This document shows positions 2,640 to 50,250 of a stretch of 58,614 nt of DNA, piece by piece. The DNA is from Candidatus Sumerlaeota bacterium (GTDB taxonomy: Bacteria; Sumerlaeota; Sumerlaeia; JAFGJS01): positions 1 through 58,614 of the forward strand of contig JAFGJS010000038.1 of the NCBI GenBank assembly GCA_016928995.1, given 5' to 3'. The position numbers and the translations under genes were made by a program. Every line of letters begins with the position of its first letter. Positions within the stretch are counted from its first letter, which is position 1. The notes below the pieces were generated by a model. It was not told where the DNA came from. It saw only the letters and a program-made list of their open reading frames with translations, and did no database searches.

Positions 2640-4049
2640 TCATCCCAATGGCTTGACTTGCGGGCCGGCAGGCGTGTCCATCACGGTGAAGCCCAGGGCT
2701 TCAATCTCTCCACGAAGGCGGTCGGCTTCGGCAAAGTTCTTCTGTTTGCGGAGCTCCTGACGCTGTTGAGCCAGTTCAAGCGCCTTTTGCTCGGAGTCTT
2801 GCGTGGCGCCGCGCATCGTGCGCAGGTCGTTCAACCGTGTGCGCGACGTGGCCAGGTCGAGCGCCAGCACATCGTCCATTTTGAATAGCGTGCGCGCCTT
2901 GGCCGCTGGATCGGCGTCCGACTTGATCAGCTTATGCACCACGGCCAGCGCCGCCGAGGTGTTCAGGTCGTCGTACAGCGCCGCGCGAAATTCACTCAGA
3001 TAATCCTCCAGCGGCTCGACGGACGGCGCGGGAAGTTCTGAGCAGAACTCCCAGATTTTCGCCAGCGCGGTCTGCGCCGCCTCCAGTGCGTCCCAGGTGA
3101 AGTTGATCGGCTTGCGGTACGAGCTTTGCAGGAAGAAGTAACGCAGGGCCAGCGGCGTGAAGCCCTTCGCCCGGCAGTCGTCCAGCGTGTAGAGGTTGCC
3201 CAGGCTCTTCGACATCTTCGTGCCGTCCACATTGAGGAACGCCGAGTGCACCCAGAAGCGCGCGAAGGTCTTGCCCGTGGCGCATTCGCTCTGCGCGATC
3301 TCGTTCGTGTGGTGCACCGGAATATGGTCGATGCCGCCAGTGTGGATGTCGAGCTCCTCGCCGAGGTAGCGCATCGCCATCGCGGAGCACTCGATGTGCC
3401 AGCCCGGATAGCCGCGCCCCCAGGGGCTGTCCCATTGCATCACGTGGTTAGGCTTGTTCAGCACCCACAGCGAAAAATCCTGCGGACTCTTGCGGTCCGG
3501 ATCGGCGGCGGTGCGGAAGTTTTCGATGTTGCCGTCGAGTTGCAGGCGCGCGAAATCGGCGTAGCGGTCGAACTTATTAGAATCGAACACCACACCCGCC
3601 GGAGTGATGTATGTGAAGCCATTCTTTTCCAGCCGTTGGATCAGCTCGATCTGCTCCTGAATGTGTTCCGTGGCGCGGCAGATCACCTGCGGACGGATGA
3701 TGTTCACTTCGCGGATCGTATTGAAAAAATGCTCCTCATATTTACGCGCGAGTTCCCACGGGCTAAGCCCCTCCTTTTTCGCGCCCACATCCATCTTGTC
3801 ATCGCCTTCGTCCTCGTCCGAGGTCATGTGGCCTACGTCGGTCACGTTCATCACATGCCGCACCTCATAGCCCGCGAACTCCAGTGTGCGGCGCAGGATG
3901 TCGCTGGCGATGTATGTCTTCAGATGGCCGATGTGCGCGAAGGAATACACCGTCATCCCGCAGGAATAGATCCGCGCTTCCGGCGGATGGATCGGCGCGA
4001 ACTCCTCCACGGATCGCGATGCGGTGTTGTACAATTGAACTTTCATCAT
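2640..4049 (-). CDS. cysS: cysteine--tRNA ligase
   Basis: Charges tRNA-Cys with cysteine in the cytoplasm. The class I signatures are visible: HIGH at residues 39-42 and KMSKS in DGTKMSKSLGN. The zinc ligands expected of the family appear as SCGMTVY near the N terminus and the CSAM and HHTNE segments. I start it at the ATG at 4049, giving 469 residues, close to the family norm; an ATG follows directly at 4046. The open frame runs 100 codons further upstream, but that extension overlaps the hicB-like gene and does not resemble the enzyme. The sequence HVMNVTDVGHMTSDEDEGDDK is of the type that carries the acidic insertion. Monocistronic or cotranscribed with hicAB. Confidence 0.95.
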   Translation of the reverse strand: MMKVQLYNTASRSVEEFAPIHPPEARIYSCGMTVYSFAHIGHLKTYIASDILRRTLEFAGYEVRHVMNVTDVGHMTSDEDEGDDKMDVGAKKEGLSPWELARKYEEHFFNTIREVNIIRPQVICRATEHIQEQIELIQRLEKNGFTYITPAGVVFDSNKFDRYADFARLQLDGNIENFRTAADPDRKSPQDFSLWVLNKPNHVMQWDSPWGRGYPGWHIECSAMAMRYLGEELDIHTGGIDHIPVHHTNEIAQSECATGKTFARFWVHSAFLNVDGTKMSKSLGNLYTLDDCRAKGFTPLALRYFFLQSSYRKPINFTWDALEAAQTALAKIWEFCSELPAPSVEPLEDYLSEFRAALYDDLNTSAALAVVHKLIKSDADPAAKARTLFKMDDVLALDLATSRTRLNDLRTMRGATQDSEQKALELAQQRQELRKQKNFAEADRLRGEIEALGFTVMDTPAGPQVKPLG

Positions 4050-4176
4050 GACCTGTCCTGTGTTGGGATGCGGCATCGAAAATCGCAAGGACATCTTGCC
4101 ATGCCAATCCGCAAGATCAACGTCAAAATCCACTGCTACTATTCGGAAACGAATAGTTGCAGTGGAAGGATCGGAA

Positions 4177-23141: not shown

Positions 23142-23858
23142 CTACTGGCGCTTTTTATTGGCTTGCCTTATATTGTAGAGGCGCTCCGTGAAACCGCCTT
23201 CTTTTTTAAAAGCTTCGGCTTGCGCCTTGATCTGCCGATCCAGCAATCCACAGGCGACGGCAATCAGGACCAACGCGGCGTTGGCGGAAGTTTCCTCATA
23301 GGTGGAATTGTGGGGCGGAGTGGGCACAGTGGACGAGCTGGACGGGGTGGACGCAGTGGATTTTTGTATATCTCCACATCGTTCATCTTGTCCACATCGC
23401 TCACCTTGTCCACTTCTTCCACTCCGTCCACCTTGTCCACCTCGTCCATCCTGTCCACCCCGGCAAATCCCCTTCACCCACACTGCCACCTCATCCGCCG
23501 TCCGCGGCCTTCGGTCGATCAAATCCTGCCTTCTCGGATCCCTCCGCTCCCAAAGCGCCCAAGCCCGCTGTCGGAGAAAATCCTCATAATCCAGTTTCAA
23601 TTCCTCCAAACTGGCGCGCGCCACATTGGTCAGTTTCAGTTCCATTTTTTTCGACGTCCCGCTGGCCTGACTGCCTTCAGCAATATTTTGCACGCCAGAT
23701 CGCGCCGCCTGAACCATCTGGTCATGCGTCCGGCTTGCCCGCGGGATATACCGGTTGCAAAAACGCACCGTCACATCATAGACTAACTGCGCCACTTGAA
23801 AACTCTTCAAATGGCGATATCCCCCGTGGCCAGGAATCAAGGATTCTGCATTGTCCAT
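23142..23858 (-). CDS. four-helix-bundle protein with low-complexity insert (S23/IVS-like, suffix-domain type)
   Basis: A 238-residue protein. Residues 1-105 form the four-helix bundle known from proteins encoded in 23S rRNA intervening sequences: LKSFQVAQLVYDVTVRFC, then VQAARSGVQNIAEGSQASG (the classic R.....IAEG motif), then ELKLTNVARASLEELKLDYED. Residues ~134-190 are a Gly/Arg/Gln- then Ser/Thr/Pro-rich insert encoded by degenerate repeats. A C-terminal helical suffix (NAALVLIAVACGLLDRQ) follows. Members occur singly in many uncultured bacteria; their role is unproven, and RNA or nucleic-acid binding is suggested by kinship to Avd of diversity-generating retroelements. Divergent from gyrB. 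Confidence 0.85.
   Translation of the reverse strand: MDNAESLIPGHGGYRHLKSFQVAQLVYDVTVRFCNRYIPRASRTHDQMVQAARSGVQNIAEGSQASGTSKKMELKLTNVARASLEELKLDYEDFLRQRAWALWERRDPRRQDLIDRRPRTADEVAVWVKGICRGGQDGRGGQGGRSGRSGQGERCGQDERCGDIQKSTASTPSSSSTVPTPPHNSTYEETSANAALVLIAVACGLLDRQIKAQAEAFKKEGGFTERLYNIRQANKKRQ
23308..23460. repeat. degenerate GTGGAC / GTCCAC repeat array inside four-helix gene
   Basis: On the plus strand the left part (23308-23361) carries repeated GTGGAC-type words about nine bases apart, and the right part (23387-23460) carries the complementary GTCCAC word repeatedly, e.g. CTTGTCCACATCGCTCACC. The polarity switches in the middle, so the array can fold into a long imperfect hairpin. It keeps the reading frame open and encodes the low-complexity insert. 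Confidence 0.85.
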
Positions 23859-24202
23859 ATCAGATCCTCATAAGGATAAAATCAGGAAATAATCCCCGTT
23901 TCATGCAAGAAAAGCAACGATGAATTCATGAGCGTCAATTTATCGCGAAAGACGCTTGACCGCTACACTTCACGTTCGGATAAATAATTGAATAACATAG
24001 AGTTACGGCACAACGATCGGTTTTTTTTGTCTTGACAGTGTCCTTCAATCGAAGGAATATATATTTGTTGCGGGGTTAATGCATGAGGAGAGGGTTTTGC
24101 TCCGATTTAACCCCTATTTTTGGACAATTCCGGCGATTTTGCCGGCGTTGCCTGTTTTCTTTCGTTCCCTGGAAAAAAATGCCTGGCGAGGAGTCTGCGA
24201 AC
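23859..24202. other. divergent promoter region between four-helix gene and gyrB
   Basis: About 340 bases with no gene. They contain a likely sigma-70 promoter for gyrB (given separately) and must hold the minus-strand promoter of the four-helix gene, which I cannot place. The frame of gyrB is open upstream to 24083, but that extension lacks family character. Confidence 0.6.
24032..24063 (+). promoter_or_regulatory. candidate sigma-70 promoter of gyrB
   Basis: A consensus -35 box TTGACA at 24032-24037 is followed 17-20 bases later by an AT-rich -10 region (GAATATATATTT). It lies about 140 bases upstream of the gyrB start. Assigned by consensus only. Confidence 0.5.
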
Positions 24203-26741
<2,539 letters not shown>

Positions 26742-26743
<2 letters not shown>

Positions 26744-27296
26744 TGTTCAGAGTTTAGAGTTTGGTGTTCAGGATCGCTAACGAGACTGCCTCGGAATATC
26801 GTTCATGGCTTTTCTGAAAATTCAAAATTTGGATGTCTATCAGCGTTTATGCCGATTGCATCTGGAAGTATGCCAGTTGAGCCATAACTGGCCGGCTGAA
26901 GAAAAATATGAACTTGGCTCGCAAGTGCGCCGATCTTCCAATAGCGCGCCAGCACAATTGGCGGAAAAAAATGATGATCGGCATATCCGCAATAAAATTG
27001 AAGGAGTCAATCGGAGCCGCGGAGAAGCAGCGGAAACCATACATCATCTGTATATGGCTCATTTGAAAGGTTATCTCGATGAATCGACTTTTTCTCAGTT
27101 CAGTGAGCGATATCAAGAATGCATTCGCATGCTGAACGGCTTGGAAAAAAATCTGGAGCGTCACTTGCCTGATAAAGACCAAAGATGGAATGTCCGCGAA
27201 ACTGCATCTGAATATAATCAATCAATCGTATATACAGAAGATGAACGCGATATTGATCCGCGATTTCTGACTTCTGAACACTAAACTCTGAACACT
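26742..27296. repeat. inverted repeats framing an S23-like gene
   Basis: The left arm at 26742-26770 begins inside the gyrB stop codon: AGTGTTCAGAGTTTAG, a seven-base insertion, then TGTTCA. The right arm at 27275-27296 is the exact complement of AGTGTTCAGAGTTTAG plus TGTTCA. The right arm supplies the last two codons and the stop of the enclosed gene. The arms would bring the ends of the 550-base segment together as an RNA stem, with the gene in the loop, the arrangement known for 23S rRNA intervening sequences. Confidence 0.85.
26805..27284 (+). CDS. four-helix-bundle protein (23S rRNA intervening-sequence/S23 family)
   Basis: A 159-residue helical protein with the S23 pattern: KIQNLDVYQRLCRLHLEVCQL, EEKYELGSQVRRSSNSAPAQLAE (here APAQLAE replaces the commoner IAEG), GEAAETIHHLYMAHLKGYL, then RYQECIRMLNGLEKNLE. 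Family members form four-helix bundles that oligomerise and resemble Avd of diversity-generating retroelements; their cellular role is unproven. AT-rich compared with gyrB. Enclosed by inverted repeats that touch the gyrB stop on one side and form its own stop on the other. Confidence 0.88.
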   Translation: MAFLKIQNLDVYQRLCRLHLEVCQLSHNWPAEEKYELGSQVRRSSNSAPAQLAEKNDDRHIRNKIEGVNRSRGEAAETIHHLYMAHLKGYLDESTFSQFSERYQECIRMLNGLEKNLERHLPDKDQRWNVRETASEYNQSIVYTEDERDIDPRFLTSEH

Positions 27297-27307
27297 GCGA
27301 GGTTCCC

Positions 27308-27769
27308 ATGCAATTCATCAAAGACTGGATCGCCATTCTAACCAGCCCGGAAAAGCCTGAGATCAATGTGCGCATTGATCCCGTGCAGAAAAACACCGCC
27401 GAGGAAACCGCCAGCCAGGACGAACTCTGGAAATACGTCAGCGACCGCGCGCTGGAAAAACTCAAAGCGGAAAAAGAGCGCCGCTCGCTGCCGGTCAAGT
27501 TTCAACTGCTGCTCGGACTCGCCTGGCTCGACGGCTACCGTCAGCCGCAGGAGGCGATCCAGCTCGGACTGCGCCTTAACGCGTTGATGGACGCGGACAT
27601 CTACACCGCGATGGCCGGCAAGACGCTGCTGGAATACAAGCATCAGGACCAGTACGTGATCGACCATAAAGGCCCGGCGCACGTGGCCAACGCCTGGCGC
27701 CTCACGCGCAAAGGGCTGGAGACTGTCTGCGCCGAAATCGGCGCCAACGTGCCCAACGCCTTTGACTGA
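27308..27769 (+). CDS. conserved-looking hypothetical protein
   Basis: A 153-residue soluble protein behind a GAGG ribosome site. The first third is charged (PEINVRIDPVQKNTAEETASQDE). The rest is helical, with LLLGLAWLDGYRQPQEAIQLGLRLNALMD and a closing helix WRLTRKGLETVCAEIG. I do not recognise it. Its composition is GC-rich like the backbone. It starts just after the S23 inverted repeat, so before that insertion it may have followed gyrB directly. Confidence 0.7.
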   Translation: MQFIKDWIAILTSPEKPEINVRIDPVQKNTAEETASQDELWKYVSDRALEKLKAEKERRSLPVKFQLLLGLAWLDGYRQPQEAIQLGLRLNALMDADIYTAMAGKTLLEYKHQDQYVIDHKGPAHVANAWRLTRKGLETVCAEIGANVPNAFD

Positions 27770-27831
27770 TTCGAACAGCGCAAGCGCCCCAACAGAAGAT
27801 TTTAAAAAGTCTCATCTTTTCTTGCTTGGCG

Positions 27832-27861
27832 ATTCACAATGCGCAATTGCCAATTGTGAAT
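27832..27861. repeat. small hairpin of ATTCACAAT words
   Basis: ATTCACAAT and its complement ATTGTGAAT enclose 12 bases that again read GCGCAATTGCCA, so the same ATTG words recur in both directions. There is no T run, so it is not an obvious terminator. It lies between the hypothetical gene and the FMN riboswitch. Confidence 0.65.
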
Positions 27862-28001
27862 TGCCCGGGAAGAAAACACGGCTTTAGTGAGATCCAAAGC
27901 GCGCCTGCTGTTTTCACGAAATTTCATTGACTCTGCCGGCGTGCTTGCTAAGCTTTGATTCAAGTTTGCGGTAAATTCGCAAGCGTTTGACATTTCGGTG
28001 G

Positions 28002-28310: not shown

Positions 28311-28360
28311 TTCGAATTTTGAATTTCGAATTTGTTTCGAAGTTCGAAATTAGAATTTTG
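28311..28360. repeat. GAATTTCGAATTTG-type repeat, copy 1 (before ribE)
   Basis: An AT-rich stretch made of repeated and self-complementary words (TTCGAATTTTGAATTTCGAA, then TTTGTTTCGAAGTTCGAAAT). A related copy in the same orientation precedes ribBA at 29262-29322. It can fold on itself; no gene is present. Confidence 0.7.
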
Positions 28361-50085: not shown

Positions 50086-50158
50086 TGCAGTTCGCCTCAT
50101 ACTTCTAGCCCGATTTCTCATCACTCAGCACGTTTTCGGCTGTGAGAAATTGTCACAC

Positions 50159-50250
50159 TTGCTCGTGCTCTTGCTCTTGCTCTTGCTCTTCCTGCCCAAC
50201 CACACACTGTTTTTTTTGAGTGAGAGCAGAAGCAAGAGCAAGAGCAAGAA
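50159..50250. repeat. inverted hexanucleotide repeat pair (TTGCTC / GAGCAA), second locus
   Basis: The left arm (50159-50192) is TTGCTCGTGCTCTTGCTCTT and onward; the right arm (50218-50250) carries GAGAGCAGAAGCAAGAGCAA and onward. They face each other across about 26 bases. The unit and orientation are those of the locus at 14253-14381. It fills the space between the DUF1080 gene and the uvrD gene's 3' end. Confidence 0.85.

Follow-up and report, generated by a model that had tools for sequence, protein, structure and literature searches.

The closest described relatives of the locus analyzed here are the intervening sequences (IVSs) of 23S rRNA, found in Coxiella and Leptospira, in which an S23 open reading frame (PF05635) lies between inverted arms that form a long stem and whose distribution is sporadic. 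In the Coxiella IVS, tandem GACAGAT heptamers stand just before the S23 start codon and vary in number among strains; RNase III cuts at the first heptamer repeat, and the IVS is released as a discrete RNA (PMC4990558). The origin of IVSs has been called unclear, with transposition listed as a hypothesis, and both their origin and their mobility have been open questions since about 1990 (PMC4990558). Heptamer repeats are also found as the STRR sequences of cyanobacteria and Xanthomonas, which are intergenic and often arranged in inverted pairs; Xanthomonas genomes hold 70-75 inverted pairs of intergenic heptamer arrays, which were tied to neither S23 genes nor mobile elements (PMC4692102). In RAYT/REPIN systems, a single small gene sits between inverted hairpin sequences that also occur as gene-less copies in the genome, and the Avd protein of diversity-generating retroelements is a four-helix protein homologous to S23. 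A literature search, mostly of sources other than subscription journals, returned no report of S23 genes tied to inverted heptamer arrays outside rRNA.

We analyzed a stretch of 58,614 nucleotides from Candidatus Sumerlaeota bacterium (hereafter, the window). Positions 26742-27297 are probably one copy of a mobile element, here called the S23 element, consisting of a lone S23/Avd-like gene between inverted arms of short tandem repeats. The element and its neighbors are as follows.

24083-26743, + strand: gyrB, an open reading frame matching NCBIfam gyrB, subfamily PRK14939, at 997 bits
26742-26771, + strand: 5' arm, tandem heptamers AGTGTTC AGAGTTT AGAGTTT GGTGTTC, with G in excess of C and a unit of the type NNAGKNN
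26805-27284, + strand: S23-like / 23S_rRNA_IVP four-helix-bundle gene of 159 aa, matching TIGR02436 and PF05635
27274-27297, + strand: 3' arm, CTGAACACTAAACTCTGAACACTG, an inverted copy of the 5' heptamer array
27308-27769, + strand: next gene, 153 aa, with no family match, starting about 11 nt past the 3' arm

Unlike the rRNA IVSs, the window element lies between gyrB and a protein gene rather than in 23S rRNA helix 9, 25 or 45; in S23 elements each arm is a tandem array, with a unit that varies among loci, and no rRNA is fragmented. Relative to RAYT/REPIN, the element contains no Y1 transposase, its cargo is an Avd-like four-helix bundle, and its arms are locus-specific heptamer arrays in place of the fixed, folded REP arms of RAYT loci. 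It differs from an insertion sequence or MITE in having no family-constant terminal inverted repeats, with presence and absence at precise sites nonetheless seen at five plasmid sites, and from a diversity-generating retroelement in that no reverse transcriptase was found at the S23 loci examined, nor in the majority of S23-positive genomes. Whereas the Xanthomonas heptamers were described without such a partner, the heptamers here form the arms of S23 elements.

The gyrB stop codon is TAG (26741-26743), and the element starts within it. From the A of this codon, AGTGTTCAGAGTTTAG (26742-26757) is exactly complementary to CTAAACTCTGAACACT (27281-27296), bearing out the 16-base arm that an earlier, sequence-only reading of this DNA had placed at the gyrB stop. 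That reading had also proposed further pairing, which is found as an ungapped extension to 20 nt at 95% (26742-26761 / 27277-27296) and, in shifted registers, as 24 nt at 88% and 39 nt at 72%. Pairing in more than one register follows from the make-up of the arms, each a tandem series of heptamers (TGAACAC / TAAACTC). As the reading had stated, the right arm supplies the final codons (SEH) and the TAA stop (27282-27284) of the enclosed gene, the sole open reading frame between the arms, and the gene product belongs to the S23 four-helix family, with scores of 80 bits for TIGR02436 (cut-off 24) and 85 bits for PF05635 (cut-off 33.8). When up to 3 mismatches are allowed, the window holds 3 matches to TGAACACTAAACTCTGAACACT, none of them outside the two arms, against 0 expected; the arm score of 17 compares with a maximum of 12 in 1000 Markov resamples. 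The predicted RNA stem is strong (fold z = -3.5). The gene at 27308-27769 presumably adjoined gyrB directly before the insertion. A search of 39 genomes of the class returned no homologue of this downstream open reading frame, and for that reason no empty site was found for the window copy.

The window also contains a second S23-type gene (23142-23858, - strand) with a TIGR04258 "four helix bundle suffix" domain. It is split by an in-frame region of 9/18-bp tandem repeats that holds an inverted pair (23330-23360 / 23418-23448). Close to the element, the intergenic DNA also carries AATTNNN heptamers and an array of the TTCGAAATTAGAATTTGT type (27825-27866, 28311-28358), and hexamer CTTGCT/AGAGCA inverted hairpins, with the two halves 34-109 bp apart, recur throughout the genome (window 50158-50249; loci L107, L109, L119 and L124).

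Nine TIGR02436 matches in the same genome correspond to seven S23 loci, including that of the window and one split by a frame break, plus the second S23 gene of the window. Six of the seven loci are flanked by inverted tandem arrays of 6-8-mers, and no two of them share a unit: AGGCATYR (8 bp), GGGTCTA, TGAACAC (window), GTTCTC (6 bp), a TAAATYC-like unit and TAATCC. At the seventh, L006, the only array is a palindromic AATTNNN one on the upstream side. Four of the six arm units recur in S23-less arrays elsewhere in an 8% sample of the genome, frequently in inverted pairs separated by 20-200 bp, and the TGAACAC-type pattern has 16 matches over several contigs. On contig C37, two GGGTCTA inverted pairs surround non-S23 genes (L114, 1248-1939 and 5408-6156), the cargo being an orphan 190-aa open reading frame and a gene for a DUF6882 protein. 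S23-less arrays and other cargo indicate that S23 is not always inside the arms.

We surveyed S23 loci by scoring pairings between their 500-bp flanks, ungapped, at +1/-2, and counting a locus as armed at a score of at least 14. Arms were found at 45 of 55 S23 loci and at 0 of 30 smpB loci from the same genome set (Fisher p = 1e-14), and cross-locus arm pairings reached the cut-off once in 165 in this first set. With added genomes and plasmids, 62 of 80 S23 loci were armed. An independent set of 78 named loci, drawn from Bacteroidota, Acidobacteriota, Planctomycetota, Nitrospirota, Chloroflexota, Clostridia, Alphaproteobacteria, CPR bacteria and others, gave 49 armed loci and 5 cross-locus pairings in 308; one locus in this set, from a Methanophagales archaeon, scored 13, just below the cut-off. 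Arms went undetected at roughly one fifth to one third of S23 loci. Rfam searches of 20 of the named loci returned no rRNA match. The sequence-only reading had proposed a survey of this kind, for armed S23 genes outside rRNA. Across the surveyed sets, the arm unit agrees within a locus and differs among loci. Applied to Y1 transposase (RAYT) genes, the same scoring recovered their known REP-type arms in 16 of 19 cases, all fixed hairpins without heptamer arrays, which indicates that the method detects real systems. Chance origin of the arms is rejected by the pattern count, the resamples and the smpB controls. At the level of sequence, these comparisons establish an association of S23 genes with inverted arms across phyla. 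The S23 family itself is present in about half of 61 genomes searched. Near the S23 locus of a KSB1 genome (L192), two Acido-Lenti-1 RNA motifs were seen (3486-3531, 4059-4104).

The arms share a recognizable anatomy. A period of 7 or 14 fits the arms best at 46 of 62 loci, the units being mostly 7 bp, and in two survey sets G outnumbers C in the 5' arm, at 52 of 59 and at 48 of 49 loci. When 74 period-7 loci were aligned in phase, a weak consensus, NNAG[GT]NN (that is, NNAGKNN), emerged with 3.39 bits, permuted controls giving at most 2.89. By eye, the arms do not resemble the attC sites of integron cassettes. Placement is also regular. The suggestion that the element settles behind stop codons is supported by the 40 loci with a co-directional upstream gene, in 29 of which the arm's outer edge falls between -10 and +20 nt relative to the stop (median 3.5 nt); the distance from the arm to the downstream start is longer (median 23). 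S23 runs in the same direction as its neighbors in 30 of 38 loci where these agree with each other (p = 0.0005). Both the stop-codon proximity and the shared orientation could come from selection as well as from target preference.

Comparison of filled and empty sites, which the sequence-only reading had also proposed, bears directly on its idea of an IVS-like element that moves. At five sites in Nostocales plasmids, all involving copies other than that of the window, gene and arms occur together or are missing together as one block, which abuts the stop codon of one gene and precedes the start of the next. Site A is filled in Trichormus and Scytonema and empty in four plasmids about 97% alike; site B is filled in Calothrix, with GGGTGTA arms, and empty in three. 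At site C, filled in Nostoc ATCC 53789 with AAAAGGG arms, the target is an overlapping TAATG stop/start, and both stop and start are restored after insertion. Site D is filled in two plasmids and empty in four, and there a base of the element turns the stop TAG into TAA. At site G (L335, Nostoc edaphicum plasmid pNe_5), the element lies antisense between two ribonucleotide reductase genes of an nrd operon, with its arm about 1 nt past the stop of the upstream gene; the site is empty in Calothrix NIES-4105. No target-site duplication of constant length was seen, there being identities of 4-5 nt at A and D and none clear at B, C and G. With precise block boundaries at these sites and arms at most other S23 loci, the reading of the window element stands as partly supported overall: an IVS-like element with defined arms that settles behind stop codons and moves is supported, excision from mRNA and movement of the window copy itself being possibilities. 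The reading had anticipated neither the tandem-heptamer make-up of the arms and their locus-specific unit, nor the arms at other S23 loci, nor the heptamers reported for a 23S rRNA IVS with the same reading frame.

The plasmid elements also record dispersal and decay. Those at sites A, D and E (E being a third plasmid, from Aulosira) are 77-80% identical, arms included, in three unrelated places, and their S23 genes show dN/dS of 0.10-0.15, that is, purifying selection. In genome G047, dispersed palindromes of about 700 bp carry S23 coding sequence on both strands (L266-L273); the eight regions read form pairs 93-99% identical and have dispersed recently. Decay is indicated by two remnants, L172 and L337, and in-frame stops occur in several S23 copies. 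The S23 gene of L337 is split by an S23-less element of about 195 bp with AGTCAG heptamer arms (1312-1506), which is found at 101 places in 43 Nostocales plasmids; GATAA follows the three copies read, and no clear duplication accompanies them. Taken with the survey, the filled and empty sites demonstrate, as far as genome comparison can, a general, mobile class of heptamer-armed S23 elements.

Orthologous sites in Flavobacteriales show that both arms have changed unit together, with pairing within a locus better than pairing between species (p = 3e-8, by a statistic that ignores the tree). At two such sites the S23 gene is common to several genera, which would also fit a useful host gene; one shared site appears, judging from the flanking protein ends, to lie between sdhA and sdhB. 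S23 is kept at this apparent sdhA/sdhB site in Flavobacteriales/Bacteroidales (L199, L215, L220, L224, L231, L242, L248, L251), and in some of these copies the arms are weak or absent. In small sequence samples, heptamer (lag-7) arrays number 5.9 (G000, a genome somewhat richer in repeats generally), 14.3 (G054) and 0.7 (G007) per 100 kb in S23-positive genomes, compared with 0.25, 0 and 1.7 in three S23-free genomes. Heptamer arrays and hairpins without S23 are found alongside S23 elements in some genomes, and the S23-free genomes sampled have few of them.

We know of no function assigned to the S23 protein. AlphaFold models the window protein as four helices with a mean pLDDT of 84, and the best Foldseek matches are the S23 family structures 2gsc and 2rld, followed by Avd of the Bordetella phage retroelement (4dwl/8ube). 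Avd profiles also match S23 members, in 11 of 12 cases for bAvd (PF22296) and 12 of 12 for PHROG Avd (PHROG 3206). No catalytic domain was found in S23. Among the 61 genomes, S23 shows no association with Y1 transposase (p = 0.20) or with reverse transcriptase (p = 0.77): 10 of 32 S23-positive genomes have no Y1 transposase match, only 7 of 32 have reverse transcriptase genes, no oftener than S23-free genomes, and eight, including G047, match neither family. Obligate mobilization in trans by a resident enzyme of either kind is rejected by this lack of co-occurrence.

Several other explanations have to be set against a mobile S23 element. The arms might be ordinary dispersed intergenic repeats or hairpins (terminators, REP/STRR-like sequences) that flank a resident S23 gene by accident, for which the many S23-less arrays in the genome, the scattered TGAACAC-type matches and the recurrence of most S23-arm units can be cited. 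Yet smpB control loci have no arms, units agree within loci and differ between them, and gene and arms are jointly absent at empty sites; the empty sites have already largely refuted this account, which we regard as very improbable. Capture of a resident gene between pre-existing repeats, as the main account, is rejected by the same sites. A host gene with a role at the RNA level is likewise unlikely, despite several points in its favor: the operon-embedded S23 gene would be kept for host benefit, its arms forming an mRNA stem by which RNase III separates or processes the transcript, in keeping with the strong predicted stem in the window, the shared direction of S23 and both neighbors, the retention of the same site across Flavobacteriales genera and the known RNase III excision of the rRNA IVS (PMC4990558). 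Presence and absence among near-identical plasmids, the decayed remnants and in-frame stops, and the antisense insertion in the nrd operon all speak against it.

Two further accounts concern the machinery of movement. S23 may be a passenger, merely the commonest cargo of non-autonomous, heptamer-armed hairpins moved in trans by a Y1/HUH transposase (IS200/IS605-RAYT group) or a reverse transcriptase. This is unlikely. It draws on the dispersed 195-bp S23-less elements, one of them within an S23 gene, on the GATAA that follows three of these copies without clear duplication, as for IS200/IS605-type insertion, on the non-S23 cargo between GGGTCTA arms, and on genome G000, with its 9 Y1 transposase matches and 1 reverse transcriptase match (RVT_1, on a contig other than that of the window). 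Against it stand the eight S23-positive genomes that match neither enzyme family, G047 with its recent copies among them, the REP-type rather than heptamer arms of the RAYT genes themselves, and the purifying selection on S23 among elements. Finally, S23 could work through reverse transcription, as Avd does, making the element a degenerate retroelement with an RNA intermediate. Homology to Avd, the sense-orientation bias of S23 and the release of the rRNA IVS as a discrete RNA by RNase III (PMC4990558) are compatible with this, but the scarcity of reverse transcriptase genes among S23-positive genomes makes it quite improbable.

For the S23 element as a mobile unit in its own right, the following mechanism may be envisaged. 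In single-stranded DNA (or RNA), the two arms would anneal as a long stem, which an S23 oligomer would recognize or hold, and the element, so folded, would be moved by host enzymes or by an enzyme supplied in trans. Two processes could keep the arms complementary: selection on the stem, and the copying of units from one arm to the other by slippage or template switching within it. Insertion behind stop codons would be tolerated because both reading frames survive. In transcripts, RNase III may cut the same stem, as it is known to do in the rRNA IVS; the IVS would on this view be an element of the same kind that has settled in a helix of rRNA. Given the heptamers that precede the same reading frame in Coxiella, the rRNA IVSs look like one niche of the S23 class.

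We tentatively propose, as a possibility that falls somewhat short of our favoring it outright, that S23 elements form a distinct and hitherto unrecognized class of mobile DNA in bacteria and archaea. Each element would be autonomous, with a single gene whose Avd-like product acts on inverted heptamer arms that renew themselves, and would have no transposase, integrase or reverse transcriptase of its own; STRR-like intergenic heptamer arrays and rRNA IVSs would be footprints or special cases of the class. One such class would join the origin of the rRNA IVSs, the function of S23 and the heptamer arrays of cyanobacteria and Xanthomonas, which were described without a cause. The S23 arms also provide a natural example of concerted change in two sequences that lie apart. 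With the family present in about half of the genomes searched, the effect of S23 elements on operon structure could be wide.
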